A stretch of 62,518 nt of DNA from a bacterium (GTDB taxonomy: Bacteria > Hydrothermota > DG-26 > JAUXAN01), in the NCBI GenBank assembly GCA_030619885.1, contig JAUXAN010000009.1:1-62518 (forward strand), written 5' to 3'. The notes under the pieces were generated by a model that saw only the letters and a list, made by a program, of their open reading frames with translations, made no database searches and had not been told where the DNA came from. A program made the position numbers and the translations under genes. Positions 193-60,965 of the stretch are shown in pieces (position 1 is the stretch's first letter; each line of letters opens with the position of its first letter).

Positions 193-396
193 TGGTTCCT
201 TCTAAGGATTAAAAGGGAAGTCCCGTAAGGGCGCTGCCCCGCAACTGTAAGCGGTTACGAAATTCTAAAAGAACAGAAGTTTTTGTTCTTAAAACCACTG
301 TCCTTCACCTATGCATAAGTGAGGGATGGGAAGGTAAGAAGAGTAGATTGACCCGCAAGCCAGGAGACCTGCCAATCCAAAAGAGAAACCTTCGAG
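193..396 (+). promoter_or_regulatory. Cobalamin (AdoCbl) riboswitch
   Basis: The conserved blocks of the cobalamin riboswitch appear in order: GGTTCC, AAAAGGGAA, the B12-box-like GCCCCGCAACTGTAAGCGG, CCACTG, GGGAAGG, and GACCCGCAAGCCAGGAGACC followed by TGCC. The family binds adenosylcobalamin and shuts off downstream transport or synthesis genes, which fits the BtuB-like receptor that follows. The hairpin between CCACTG and GGGAAGG contains CACCTATGCATAAGTG (306-321). The exact reverse complement of that 16-mer is the core of an inserted palindrome at 42729-42744, so this peripheral stem seems to have been colonised by a mobile palindrome without loss of the conserved core. Confidence 0.95.
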
Positions 397-412: not shown

Positions 413-442
413 AATCCCAACCTTGGAAGGTTGGGATTTTTG
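413..442 (+). terminator. Riboswitch expression-platform terminator
   Basis: AATCCCAACCTT and AAGGTTGGGATT form a 12-bp stem with a two-base loop, followed by TTTTTGTT, 15 bases before the btuB start. This is a standard intrinsic terminator placed to be controlled by the riboswitch. An upstream stretch (AACCTTCGAGGGAAGGT, about 387-403) could pair with part of the stem as antiterminator; that pairing is inferred. Confidence 0.85.
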
Positions 443-457
443 TTGAAAGGAGGAGAA

Positions 458-2323
458 ATGAAAAGAGTAGTTATAGCCATTGGGCTAATCTTGTGTGGTG
501 CGGTCGCATACGGACAGGAGGACACACTCCAGACAGTAGATACAACAGAGGTATGCCCGGATACTTTTGTACCCATTAAACCCAAATATGTTTTAAAAGA
601 TGTTGTAGTCACTGCTACGAGAATACCTGCAAAGATATTCACAATCCCAGCGAGTATAACATCTATCACAAGAGAGGAGATTGAAGATTATGACGAGCTC
701 TCAAAATTGATGGAATTAACTCCAGATGCAGTGATAAATAAGACAGGGTTTCTGGGAAGTTTAAAGAGCCTTTCTTTAAGGGGTTCGACCTATCAGCAGA
801 CCCTTTTTCTTCTCAATGGGAGAGAATTGAATGACCCCCAGAATGGAGGACTCGATTTGAACTTAATACCACTGAATGCAATTGATAAGATTGAAATTGT
901 GAGGGGTGGAGCATCCTCTCTTTATGGTGCAAATGCCTTCGGAGGGGTCGTGAATGTCATCACAAAGTCATTCTATGAGAATAAACCTTATGCAAAAGTC
1001 AGTGTTAAAAATGGTTCCTATAATACAAATATCACCGAAGTGGAATTTGGAAGAGGTATAGGAGAGAATCTGGATTTCTACCTCACATGGAATATGAAAA
1101 AGACAGACGGTCACAGAGCCAACAGTAGCTCGGATTCAAAAAACCTATTTGGCAAAATTAGATACAGACTCGGGGGATTGTCGTTCAATGTGCAGGCAAA
1201 GAGATATGAGAATAAACTTGGACTGCCAGGGTCATTACAATGGTCAACCCCCTCTGCAAAGGAAAATGATTATAGACTTGATACAGATTTTGAAATAAAA
1301 ATGAAGGATTTAAAACTGAAAATCTTTCATTCGGAGATTAAAAATGAATATGAAGACCCTGATTGGAACATCAGATCTTCACACCATAATGTTTATTACG
1401 GCGGTGAATTTGTAAATTCCTCAACATATAACTCTCATACACTCATTTATGGAGTGTGTGCTAAAAAAAATTCCATAACCAGCACAGAAGTCAAAGACCG
1501 AAAATCTCACCTCTTTGGGGGTTTCGTGCAGGAACACTGGAGATTTATAGAAGGTGGAAATCTCTATCTCTGTTGTCGTTACGACACCCATTCAGTCTAT
1601 GGTGGACAGATTTCACCCTCAGCAGGATTGGGTTATATCCTTAAAAATTTTGTGAATGTCTATGCAAATATCAAAAAATCTTTCCGCGCACCAACTTTCA
1701 ACGACCTTTTTTTCAATGATCCATGGATGAAAGGCGATTCAACTCTTAAGCCAGAGGTGGCTGTCTCTTATGAGTTTGGTATGAAAAACAGAATAGGTGA
1801 AAAGTTTTCATTCGAGGCATCGTATTTTGAAAGAGAGGTAGAAGATATGATACTCTGGGGCGACCCAGATGGAGATTGGATATGGGGTCCGTATAACATA
1901 GATGCGAAGGTTTCGGGCATAGAAACATCGCTCTCTTTTTCTCCCATTCCTGGTATAACACTTCGGGGAGACTATTCGTATATTGATTCCTATGACAACG
2001 CATCGAAGAAAAAAACGATATATCAGCCCGTGCATACCGCTTCCACTTCTTTGAAAATTGCTAAAAAATTCAGAAACAAATTTGAAATTTCATTTAAAAC
2101 CGACAGTAAATATACTGGAGAGAAATTCACAAACGAAGATAATTCAGAGAAACTCCCTGACTATATTCTATTTGATGCCTCTTTGAAACTTCGTATTGTA
2201 GATATTTCTCTATTTTACAAAATAAAAAATCTTTCCAACAATATTTCGTATGAGTGTACAAAATATTATCCTATGCCTGGTCGAAACATCCTCTTCGGCA
2301 TATCATGGGAATTCTGGGATTAG
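458..2323 (+). CDS. btuB: TonB-dependent outer-membrane receptor, BtuB-like (cobalamin uptake)
   Basis: Outer-membrane ligand-gated channel of 621 residues. A signal peptide (MKRVVIAIGLILCGAVAYGQ) is followed by a TonB-box-like segment (DVVVTATRIP), a plug domain with LRGS, LLNGRELNDP and VEIVRGGASSLYG-type motifs, then a barrel ending in an aromatic terminal strand (ILFGISWEFWD). The start at 458 is chosen over the upstream in-frame codon at 431 because AAAGGAGGAG lies just before it and because 431 falls inside the terminator hairpin. The cobalamin riboswitch upstream indicates cobalamin or a corrinoid as substrate. No BtuCDF genes are in the window, so inner-membrane uptake must be encoded elsewhere. 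The family assignment is firm; the substrate follows from the riboswitch. Confidence 0.9.
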   Translation: MKRVVIAIGLILCGAVAYGQEDTLQTVDTTEVCPDTFVPIKPKYVLKDVVVTATRIPAKIFTIPASITSITREEIEDYDELSKLMELTPDAVINKTGFLGSLKSLSLRGSTYQQTLFLLNGRELNDPQNGGLDLNLIPLNAIDKIEIVRGGASSLYGANAFGGVVNVITKSFYENKPYAKVSVKNGSYNTNITEVEFGRGIGENLDFYLTWNMKKTDGHRANSSSDSKNLFGKIRYRLGGLSFNVQAKRYENKLGLPGSLQWSTPSAKENDYRLDTDFEIKMKDLKLKIFHSEIKNEYEDPDWNIRSSHHNVYYGGEFVNSSTYNSHTLIYGVCAKKNSITSTEVKDRKSHLFGGFVQEHWRFIEGGNLYLCCRYDTHSVYGGQISPSAGLGYILKNFVNVYANIKKSFRAPTFNDLFFNDPWMKGDSTLKPEVAVSYEFGMKNRIGEKFSFEASYFEREVEDMILWGDPDGDWIWGPYNIDAKVSGIETSLSFSPIPGITLRGDYSYIDSYDNASKKKTIYQPVHTASTSLKIAKKFRNKFEISFKTDSKYTGEKFTNEDNSEKLPDYILFDASLKLRIVDISLFYKIKNLSNNISYECTKYYPMPGRNILFGISWEFWD

Positions 2324-14471: not shown

Positions 14472-15434
14472 ATGGCTCGTGGTTTAAGAATACAATTTTC
14501 GGGTGCGTTTTATCATATTATAACCCGTGGAAATGAAAAGAGACCAATTTTCATAGATGATTCTGATAGGAAAAAGTATCTGGAAATCATTGGGAATTAC
14601 AAAAGGGACTTTGGTTTTTACCTGTACTGTTATACATTGATGACAAACCATAATCACCTTTTGATAGAAACACCCATGGGGAATATTTCCAGAATTATGC
14701 TTTGCGTAAATACAAACTATGCAGTCTATTTCAATAGACGGCATAATCGGGTAGGGCATCTATTTCAAGGAAGGTACAAGAGCATCGTTGTAGATAAGGA
14801 GGCTTACCTGTTGCGGTTACTGAGGTATATCCATTTAAATCCAGTGAGAGCGAAAATGGTAAGGAGCCCCAAAGAATATAAATGGAGCAGCCACAGGGTA
14901 TATATTAGTGGTAGAGATACATCAGGATTGATAGACACAGAGCCAGTTTTAGGGCGTTTTGGGAATACTAAAGAGATGCAAATTACAGCTTACAGAGACT
15001 TCGTAGAATCTGAAATAGGAAGTGAACACCCTGGATTTGAGGTAAAAGAAGGGCAATTTTTAGGTGATGACGATTTTATAAATAATGTAAAGAAGAATAG
15101 AATCCGAGACATTACTGAGAATAAAGAGATTCTACAGAGGTTTATGACTTTTGACGAGATATTGAGTGGTGTGGCTCGATTTTACAAGACAGAGGAATCT
15201 GAGATAAGATACTCAAGGGGGCACAAAAGTGTGCTCCTTCGCTACATAACGATATGGTTTGCAAGGAAATGGACAAATATGACCCTAAAAGATATAGGGG
15301 AGTGTTTTGGAGGGATGCCACATTCCGGCGTCTTCTTTGGTATTAAGAGAGTAGAGAGGGAGATGTGTACTAATAAAGAGTTTGCAAAAAATATCCAACG
15401 ATTAGCCAAAGTTTTGACAAAATTGAAGGGTTGA
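14472..15434 (+). CDS. REP-associated tyrosine transposase (RAYT, Y1/TnpA-REP) with DnaA-like C-terminal domain
   Basis: A single-strand DNA transposase of the HUH/Y1 class, 320 residues. It begins MARGLRIQFSGAFYHIITRG; the HUH motif is in MTNHNHLLIETP (about residue 57), and the catalytic Tyr is in LRYIHLNPVRAKMV (about residue 116), followed by EYKWSSH, all typical of RAYTs. Residues about 215-310 resemble the DnaA domain IV helix-turn-helix (TLKDIGECFGGMPHSGVFFG), an arrangement found in some transposases of this group. It is intact and has a strong leaderless promoter. Known RAYTs bind and help spread palindromic REP sequences, which matters here because the window is full of palindromes. 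A broken relative lies at 55804-55912. Confidence 0.95.
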   Translation: MARGLRIQFSGAFYHIITRGNEKRPIFIDDSDRKKYLEIIGNYKRDFGFYLYCYTLMTNHNHLLIETPMGNISRIMLCVNTNYAVYFNRRHNRVGHLFQGRYKSIVVDKEAYLLRLLRYIHLNPVRAKMVRSPKEYKWSSHRVYISGRDTSGLIDTEPVLGRFGNTKEMQITAYRDFVESEIGSEHPGFEVKEGQFLGDDDFINNVKKNRIRDITENKEILQRFMTFDEILSGVARFYKTEESEIRYSRGHKSVLLRYITIWFARKWTNMTLKDIGECFGGMPHSGVFFGIKRVEREMCTNKEFAKNIQRLAKVLTKLKG

Positions 15435-38694: not shown

Positions 38695-38818
38695 TTCGTT
38701 AAGCGTTTAAGGGTAACGAAGCCCGTATCGTTTAGCGTCAATCGGTTACGTCAAAAAGACGATTCACATAGCCCTCAAACGAAACGGGCATCGTAACCGA
38801 TTAACGCAACCGAGTAAA
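38695..38818 (-). repeat. Dispersed structured element (ATCGGTTACGATGCCCG family), copy 1
   Basis: Read on the minus strand it starts ACTCGGTTGCGTTAATCGG, TTACGATGCCCGTTTCG, and ends ACGATACGGGCTTCGTTACC. Two other copies, both in the opposite orientation, are at 42700-42911 and 60867-60965. The GATGCCCG and CGGGCTTCG blocks can pair. It occupies most of the gap between the 5S gene and the EF-G-like gene. Confidence 0.8.
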
Positions 38819-40875: not shown

Positions 40876-40904
40876 CCCCGTTAGATGTTTACTATCTAAC
40901 GGGG
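40876..40904. repeat. 29-bp palindrome CCCCGTTAGAT..ATCTAACGGGG with TGAA duplication
   Basis: Stem CCCCGTTAGAT/ATCTAACGGGG with a seven-base loop. It is flanked by TGAA on both sides (40872-40875, 40905-40908). It interrupts a dispersed repeat that would otherwise read GACGCAGATGAACGCAGATT. Confidence 0.85.
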
Positions 40905-42699: not shown

Positions 42700-42911
42700 T
42701 TTACAGTCGCTCGTTTAAGTTAACCCAGCACTTATGCATAGGTGCTGGGTTAATCGGTTACGATGCCCGCCCCGTTAGAAAACAAGCACTTCTAACGGGG
42801 CCCGTTTCGTCCTTCGGTGATGGAATCCGTCTTTTTAGATCGTTCTTCACATCCGTAACTGTTAACCGCTCCACGATACGAGCCTCGTCATCGTCAAACG
42901 ATTAACGAAAC
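42700..42911 (+). repeat. Dispersed structured element, copy 2, carrying two nested palindromes
   Basis: It starts TTTACAGTCGCTCGTTTAAG and ends CAAACGATTAACGAAAC. Compared with copies at 38695 and 60867 it holds two insertions. One is a 26-bp palindrome (42724-42749, core CACTTATGCATAGGTG) between TTAA duplicates; the other is a 31-bp palindrome (42770-42800, CCCCGTTAGA..TCTAACGGGG) between CCCG duplicates. With flanking dispersed repeats it fills the 450-base gap up to the tRNA-Ser gene; no gene is seen there. Confidence 0.85.
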
Positions 42912-60866: not shown

Positions 60867-60965
60867 TTTACAGTCACTCGGTTAAGTTGATCGGTTACGA
60901 TGCCCGTTAAACGTAACCTTTAAATTACAATACGGGCTTCGTCACCATTAGACACTTAACAAAAT
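60867..60965 (+). repeat. Dispersed structured element, copy 3
   Basis: It reads TTACAGTCACTCGGTTAAGT, TGATCGGTTACGATGCCCG and ends ATACGGGCTTCGTCACC plus TTAAC. This is the shortest of three copies and has neither of the palindromes present in the copy at 42700, so it provides empty-site comparison for the TTAA insertion. It lies between convergent amrS and rseC. Confidence 0.8.

Follow-up and report, generated by a model that had tools for sequence, protein, structure and literature searches.

MITEs are short, non-autonomous inverted repeats that have a longer coding relative. Rickettsia palindromic elements (RPEs) are, in the passages of PMC2229807 on which we draw, repeats of 105–146 bp found in Rickettsia, where both the tmRNA and the RNase P RNA (M1 RNA) contain copies and where an insertion in guanylate kinase was tolerated. 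GIY-YIG insertion sequences are known from the rRNA of CPR bacteria, and according to the relevant part of PMC11270868 most of these rRNA inserts are located at the top or at the base of a stem-loop.

The palindrome described here, a repeat of the WOR-3 phylum with a copy in a cobalamin riboswitch, has traits in common with each of these systems. Like the RPEs it is dispersed, and it occurs between genes, in frame in conserved protein genes (Cmk, SmpB and PCMT, with mixed results for MurD) and inside structured RNA genes (the RNase P RNA and the cobalamin riboswitch). It differs from the RPEs, as defined in those passages of PMC2229807, in its size (the miniatures are ~26 bp), in its host phylum, in the riboswitch as a target, and in that the same kind of arms brackets a nuclease ORF. 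In our analysis, the WOR-3 palindrome behaves like the RPEs, with a candidate mobility gene added. Like the CPR rRNA inserts, as that part of PMC11270868 presents them, it involves small GIY-YIG ORFs in structured RNAs, outside group I and group II introns. However, the CPR inserts are in 16S and 23S rRNA, whereas the WOR-3 host RNA is RNase P RNA, with terminal arms identified and with ORF-less miniatures genome-wide; the searched text of PMC11270868 contains neither 'inverted repeat' nor 'palindrom'. Short palindromes, tens of copies per genome and a candidate mobility gene also recall the REPs and RAYTs as portrayed in part of PMC2817692, but here the bracketed gene is GIY-YIG instead of Y1, copies are found inside genes and RNAs, and the flanks of Y1 genes are different.

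The resemblance to MITEs lies in the short non-autonomous inverted repeats with a longer coding relative; in contrast to MITEs, neither a DDE transposase nor a duplicated target was found. That the palindrome belongs to a hairpin-borne nuclease element is a candidate explanation that can be tested. In the full-text literature, a body from which subscription papers are mostly absent, neither this WOR-3 family nor a riboswitch with a mobile palindrome nor a GIY-YIG gene in RNase P RNA was found to be described.

The cobalamin riboswitch and its lengthened stem

The window, i.e., the whole stretch of 62,518 nucleotides that was analysed, is contig C83 of a genome of 2.46 Mb in 86 contigs. Its cobalamin riboswitch (Table 1) was the single match to RF00174 in a profile search of all contigs of this genome. 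Its identity is apparent from the full-length model match above gathering and from the TonB-dependent receptor encoded downstream, where the ORF at 431–2323 matches the Pfam families TonB_dep_Rec_b-barrel (9.8e-36) and Plug (4.8e-21). The ATG at 458 is the start that we chose for this gene.

According to the first-pass annotation, a 16-nt sequence in the riboswitch is the exact reverse complement of a palindrome core at 42729–42744 and lies in a variable stem between CCACTG and GGGAAGG, while the conserved riboswitch blocks are intact. The identity of the two cores was confirmed by reading both sites. The location also proved correct in the Rfam alignment, which showed a hairpin between the two motifs that is 14 bases longer than the consensus, with the model otherwise matched in full. 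RNA folding predicts an unbroken peripheral stem that includes the palindrome, at −15.6 kcal/mol (z −2.65), with one C-A mismatch in the core of the transcribed strand. By the nomenclature for E. coli btuB (J10/11, P11, J11/10), with helix names from the pertinent part of PMC5359240, this stem would correspond to P11. The riboswitch copy has only the 16-nt core in common with the rest of the family; its outer stem is TCCTT/AGGGA where CCCCG/CGGGG is usual, which counts against its being a miniature of this family.

Table 1. Features of the riboswitch locus and related hairpins in the window.
Feature	Position	Strand	Basis or remark
Cobalamin riboswitch aptamer RF00174	176–390	+	cmscan 100.7 bits (gathering 31.5), model 1–189
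Peripheral stem between CCACTG (295–300) and GGGAAGG (328–334)	295–334	+	Rfam alignment and folding
Palindrome core CACCTATGCATAAGTG	306–321	+	Fills stem tip; outer pairs 301–305 with 322–326
GC-rich hairpin followed by Ts, probable terminator of expression platform	413–438	+	Read from sequence
TonB-dependent receptor (BtuB-like), regulated gene	458–2323	+	Pfam matches on ORF 431–2323
Intergenic miniature hairpin of the same family, TTAACCCAGCACTTATGCATAGGTGCTGGGTTAA	42720–42753	.	Folds at −23.9 kcal/mol, z −7.6
Hairpin without ORF, CCCCGTTAGA arms (second family)	40876–40904	.	Near-identical arms bracket GIY-YIG ORFs in other genomes
Second ORF-less hairpin of the CCCCGTTAGA family, adjoining the 42720 palindrome	42770–42800	.	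CCCCGTTAGA arms

Dispersal of the palindrome

A single 16-mer pair in the window alone is unremarkable. By our own arithmetic, about one shared 16-mer is expected over both strands of 62 kb; with up to 3 mismatches the window held 3 core matches compared to 0.68 expected, and at least 3 were reached in 4 of 100 shuffles. The status of the palindrome as a repeat was settled by the genome scan. There, the core CACYTATGCATARGTG was found at 42 places with up to 2 mismatches, 25 of them exact, against only 3 places for the control pattern read backwards. One of the 42 (L054, 201–216, one mismatch) was rejected as an insertion and is a coincidence, since it belongs to a native 23S rRNA helix that aligns with the consensus without extra length.

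Most cores sit in longer hairpins, such as CCCCG-core-CGGGG or CCCAG-core-CTGGG. Among 64 distinct sequence windows of the repeat, core pair 4/13 was T-A in 34, C-G in 24 and something else in 6, and the five flanking pairs remained paired in 55 to 63. The letters vary while the pairing persists, and hence the arms covary. TTAA flanks, which had been ascribed to the palindrome at 42720–42753, are indeed present there, and there only. TTAA as a general target site was discarded, with TTAA on both sides in just 1 of the 64 distinct windows. A terminator function was discarded as well: of 70 core sites, convergent ORFs flank only 2, compared to 36 between tandem and 8 between divergent ORFs as delimited by a crude ORF caller (the remaining sites are 16 within ORFs and 8 at edges). 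Inspection of the copies revealed no regular T tract behind the hairpins, and a search with 14 loci gave no match to a known Rfam family above gathering.

The CCCCGTTAGA hairpins of the window belong to a second family, which behaves like the first. Arms near-identical to theirs (CCCCGTTAGAGAT, ATCCCGTTAGAGATTTA) bracket GIY-YIG ORFs at four loci in other WOR-3 genomes (L262, L279, L282, L283). Yet another intergenic dispersed repeat (around CGGTTACGATGCCCG) is present in three copies (38775–38815, 42746–42779 and 60876–60908), one of which abuts the 42720 palindrome. A 24-bp tandem repeat (TACCGAGTAAGACGAGGTGCTATG) occupies the right contig end (62379–62518) and has an inverted counterpart near the left end (83–119); the assembly probably broke at this repeat.

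Within the phylum, exact cores are present in 14 of the 147 genomes, at 90 sites altogether, and are absent from the two other genomes of the same class (G001, G002). The sequence CCCGCACYTATGCATARGTGCGGG was found in 52 stretches of the genome_contigs collection, whose titles name WOR-3, Stahlbacteria or TA06 in 40 cases, Zixiibacteriota in 4, only 'bacterium' in 5, and Portnoybacteria, Roizmanbacteria and Bacteroidetes in one case each; none names Rickettsia. The palindrome family is largely confined to WOR-3/Stahlbacteria. Viral carriage was sought with CCSCACYTATGCATARGTGSGG, which had 0 matches in the viral_contigs collection.

Several copies lie in protein-coding genes. Among the 53 core sites of these 52 stretches, 11 are inside ORFs of at least 80 residues. 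Two of these were left out of the protein insertions: the long ORF through the palindrome of L200 proved to be a TonB receptor's riboswitch leader, while the ORF of L193 had no support from the family search. The nine others match Pfam (glycyl-tRNA synthetase beta, macro domain, B12-binding/radical SAM, DUF374, MurD, cytidylate kinase, PCMT, SmpB and Mfd). The DUF374 and radical SAM ORFs have the palindrome beyond the domains that were matched, and the contig ends within the macro-domain ORF. In translation, the palindrome mostly gives ALMHKC or HLCISA, most often framed by P and G. The best case is the cytidylate kinase (Cmk) of G031, a genome that we took as WOR-3 RS_16_8 because of identical DNA (G093 was likewise taken as TA06 DG_78). 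Its 6-residue insert is absent from 13 of 13 other WOR-3 genomes searched and from both solved structures shown. SmpB has 5 extra residues compared to solved structures, and so has PCMT compared to one solved structure, a second alignment ending at the insert. In Mfd the palindrome falls in a gapped region of the structure alignment, and MurD has 4 extra residues relative to 3lk7 and 0 relative to 4buc.

RNase P RNA is a larger target than the riboswitch. Exact copies of the palindrome lie inside RF00010 in RS_16_8 (L215) and in G020 (L077), the latter copy being the sole exact core of its genome. Riboswitch and rnpB together contain 5 of the 90 exact core sites, compared to 0.026 expected by chance if the two targets are taken to be 215 and 390 nt long (P 9e-11). 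Elements were found in the rnpB of 12 of 73 genomes, a non-random choice (best-scoring, longest and a spread) from the 121 genomes with a match, in which the motif anchor could not be placed at 2 of 74 loci. In these twelve, miniatures occur in G000, G020, G031 and G093; ORF-less relatives of ~70–290 nt with the same or similar arms in G106, G107, G109, G110 and G119; and GIY-YIG ORFs inside or at rnpB in G000, G031, G093, G095 (a fragment), G097 (twice) and G101. In TA06 DG_78, for instance, the RNase P RNA reaches 670 nt because its P12 stem, CCCCGCACCTAT...ATAGGTGCGGGG, encloses the ORF. In RS_16_8, a single rnpB RNA contains both a full element, with arm CCCAGCACATAGTTTGC, and one that lacks the ORF, with arm CCCAGCACATAGTTTATGTGCTGGG; the two have the arm CCCAGCACATAGTTT in common. 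The helix names P3, P9, P12 and P15–P17 follow type A nomenclature as we mapped it onto the Rfam alignment. Three further RNase P RNAs (L326, L327, L328), 743–791 nt in length, have two or three separate hairpin inserts per molecule.

A candidate nuclease gene between hairpin arms

The ORF in rnpB of G093 encodes a GIY-YIG protein (PF01541, 1.6e-11), and PF01541 was found in all seven ORFs tested (E 1.6e-11 to 3.4e-18). Relatives of the G093 ORF are present in 45 of the 147 genomes of the phylum. Among 50 GIY-YIG loci, which include one duplicate as L254 and L295 are one place, 23 have an inverted repeat across the ORF with a score of 12 or higher, compared to 1.7% of mismatched flank pairs, and 13 have CCC.CAC in both arms, compared to 109 of 2450 mismatched pairs. 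Since loci of one and the same arm type are among the mismatched pairs, this control is conservative. GIY-YIG loci and miniature hairpins have terminal arms in common: the arms CCCCGCACCTAT of G093 and CCCAGCACTTAT of G119 match miniature arms over 12 nt. GIY-YIG matches occur in 10 of the 14 core-bearing genomes compared to 35 of the 133 others, phylogeny being ignored.

From these arms we infer that the GIY-YIG candidate nuclease moves the palindromes. The absence of GIY-YIG from some of the core-bearing genomes counts against this explanation. In the window's own genome, none of the three GIY-YIG loci has CYTAT arms; the locus at rnpB (C36) has arms CCCCGCACATAAGTTGCC, and those on C49 and C57 are without convincing inverted repeat. 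Hence, the mover of the local miniatures is unseen. At six loci (L263, L265, L267, L271, L273, L275), a small GIY-YIG ORF lies beside a tRNA gene and is followed by a further copy of the 3' part of the tRNA, as if the GIY-YIG element at these tRNA loci enters tRNA genes and restores them.

An alternative explanation might be that the palindromes are REP-type elements spread by a RAYT, a Y1 (IS200-like) transposase, and that the link with GIY-YIG is incidental. This would agree with the presence of Y1_Tnp in all 14 core-bearing genomes compared to 73 of the 133 others (Fisher P 8e-4, phylogeny again ignored) and with the 14 Y1 matches in the genome of the window, one of them inside the window. 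Yet, according to PMC2817692 every RAYT has a cognate REP on either side, the two being inverted relative to each other, and none of the 14 Y1 genes in this genome lies between two inverted copies of the palindrome. Thirteen of these loci are without a core within 2 mismatches, and the other (C48) has a core on one side and an inverted flank of its own, GGGGACAGGCACAAAC. The Y1 gene of the window is flanked by TTGGGGTCAA and TTGACCCCAAG, not by the palindrome. We consider it unlikely that a RAYT spreads the palindromes. The Y1 transposase of the window (14472–15434) has a C-terminal DnaA-type helix-turn-helix (Pfam), and with flanking copies of TTGGGGTCAA and TTGACCCCAAG plus a tandem repeat, its gene is RAYT-like with its own cognate repeat.

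Arrival of the core in riboswitches

Our profile search found RF00174 in 116 of the 147 genomes. The comparison of riboswitches comprised 121 rows, consisting of the profile matches and G093, whose riboswitch scores only 24 bits. The exact core is present in the same stem in 3 of the 121 riboswitches, from three families: G000 (f1), G031 (f14) and G093 (f10). Two more, G007 (f8) and G100 (f10), are within 3 edits of the core, a distance reached by random hairpins in 0.5% of trials. Further rows at 4 edits (G099, G101, G103, G017, G072, G115, G055) were regarded as background, since 3.6% of random hairpins come this close. In a few rows an earlier CCACTG was picked as anchor, so that those stem segments read too long. 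A scan of the genome_contigs collection for a riboswitch with the core gave no match, with two of the three known cases unfit for the pattern or perhaps outside the collection; since core-bearing riboswitches are known elsewhere, the empty scan is no evidence of absence. The cobalamin riboswitch of TA06 DG_78 (L072, ~1560–1760, minus strand) has an extra AT-rich insert of ~140 nt near P4, without recognised arms.

A shorter hairpin in relatives had been proposed as confirmation of an insertion. In line with this expectation, the stems of the two same-class riboswitches (G001 and G002) are only 14 and 18 nt long, compared to 27 nt in the window. At the riboswitch, neither a duplicated target site nor an empty allele is known, the nearest genomes belonging only to the same class, and this weighs against our explanation. 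A long P11 that lacks the core is common in the phylum and occurs in several other families. Length alone therefore proves nothing, and native stem growth must be excluded case by case.

Common descent is another possibility: the WOR-3 ancestor would already have had the hairpin in its riboswitch, most lineages would have lost it, and the dispersed repeats may have been seeded from it. The first-pass annotation had named an ancestral hairpin conserved in distant relatives as evidence against insertion. Part of this was borne out, weakly: the same core is present in two distant families, and with the near cores included the same stem carries it in f1, f8, f10 and f14. In addition, the riboswitch hairpin of G020, from the family of G031, has the same CCCG/CGGG ends. 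Conservation did not stand, as 116 of the 121 riboswitches, including both same-class genomes, have nothing within 3 edits of the core, which makes independent arrival likelier than common descent. Moreover, the riboswitches of G031 and G093 carry the core variant that is common in their own genome or family, and an origin in the riboswitch leaves unexplained why the same kind of arms surrounds nuclease ORFs in rnpB. Common descent thus seems quite improbable, and the core is likelier, although not proven, to have reached the riboswitches independently. Convergence, in which a DNA-binding protein or a preference of RNA structure for CACYTATGCATARGTG led to independent acquisition by mutation, would suit the near-perfect dyad with its strict core and the many intergenic copies, some just upstream of TTGACA-like sequences, but it is very unlikely given that the copies in frame with MurD, Cmk, SmpB, PCMT and Mfd and the 6 added Cmk codons point to insertion instead of drift, and that the outer pairs change without loss of pairing.

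That the riboswitch hairpin is a copy of a dispersed element is well supported. Its reading as an insertion is supported because insertion is shown elsewhere, by the extra codons of cytidylate kinase and the copies in RNase P RNA. The earlier suggestion that a repeat had entered a variable stem where the RNA tolerates a longer hairpin fits these results as well, i.e., a dispersed palindrome, short stems in the same class and insertion at other sites. From the sequence, the riboswitch most likely tolerates the longer hairpin. We consider it probable that positions 306–321 are a miniature, ORF-less copy of a WOR-3 mobile hairpin element that in its full form has a GIY-YIG ORF in the loop.

The full element would be an inverted repeat with arms CCCNGCAC... 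and a small GIY-YIG nuclease ORF in the loop, and a miniature would be the two arms almost joined. One such miniature would have entered the P11 stem of the cobalamin riboswitch of btuB at its tip, or taken the place of that tip. Copies would persist where a longer hairpin does little harm, namely between genes, in frame in proteins and in tolerant peripheral RNA stems, such as P11 of the riboswitch and P3, P9, P12 and the P15–P17 region of RNase P RNA. Most likely, the GIY-YIG protein would cut hairpins or target sites, and full and miniature copies would spread by cutting and repair. The short derivatives would travel in trans or through template switching, being copied from one stem to another where both already have CCC/GGG ends. 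The riboswitch with the lengthened stem would still work.

On balance, we lean slightly towards the broader view that these elements form a class of WOR-3 mobile elements living in RNA hairpins. The GIY-YIG gene would be located in an inverted-repeat loop at the apex of a peripheral stem, so that the host stem is merely lengthened, and the same enzyme would spread ORF-less miniatures into riboswitches, ribozymes, proteins and intergenic DNA, with several arm families (CCCNGCAC, CCCCGTTAGA, CCCTGTGTAATA) coexisting.

Our results would mean that a mobile element has settled in a riboswitch, as seen in several families, and they may connect palindromes seemingly without a mover with a small nuclease gene that is enclosed by arms of this kind. 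The spread of protein-coding palindromes such as the RPEs would thereby become testable. Furthermore, the copies may serve as natural insertion experiments, indicating which stems of RNase P RNA and of the cobalamin riboswitch tolerate extension.
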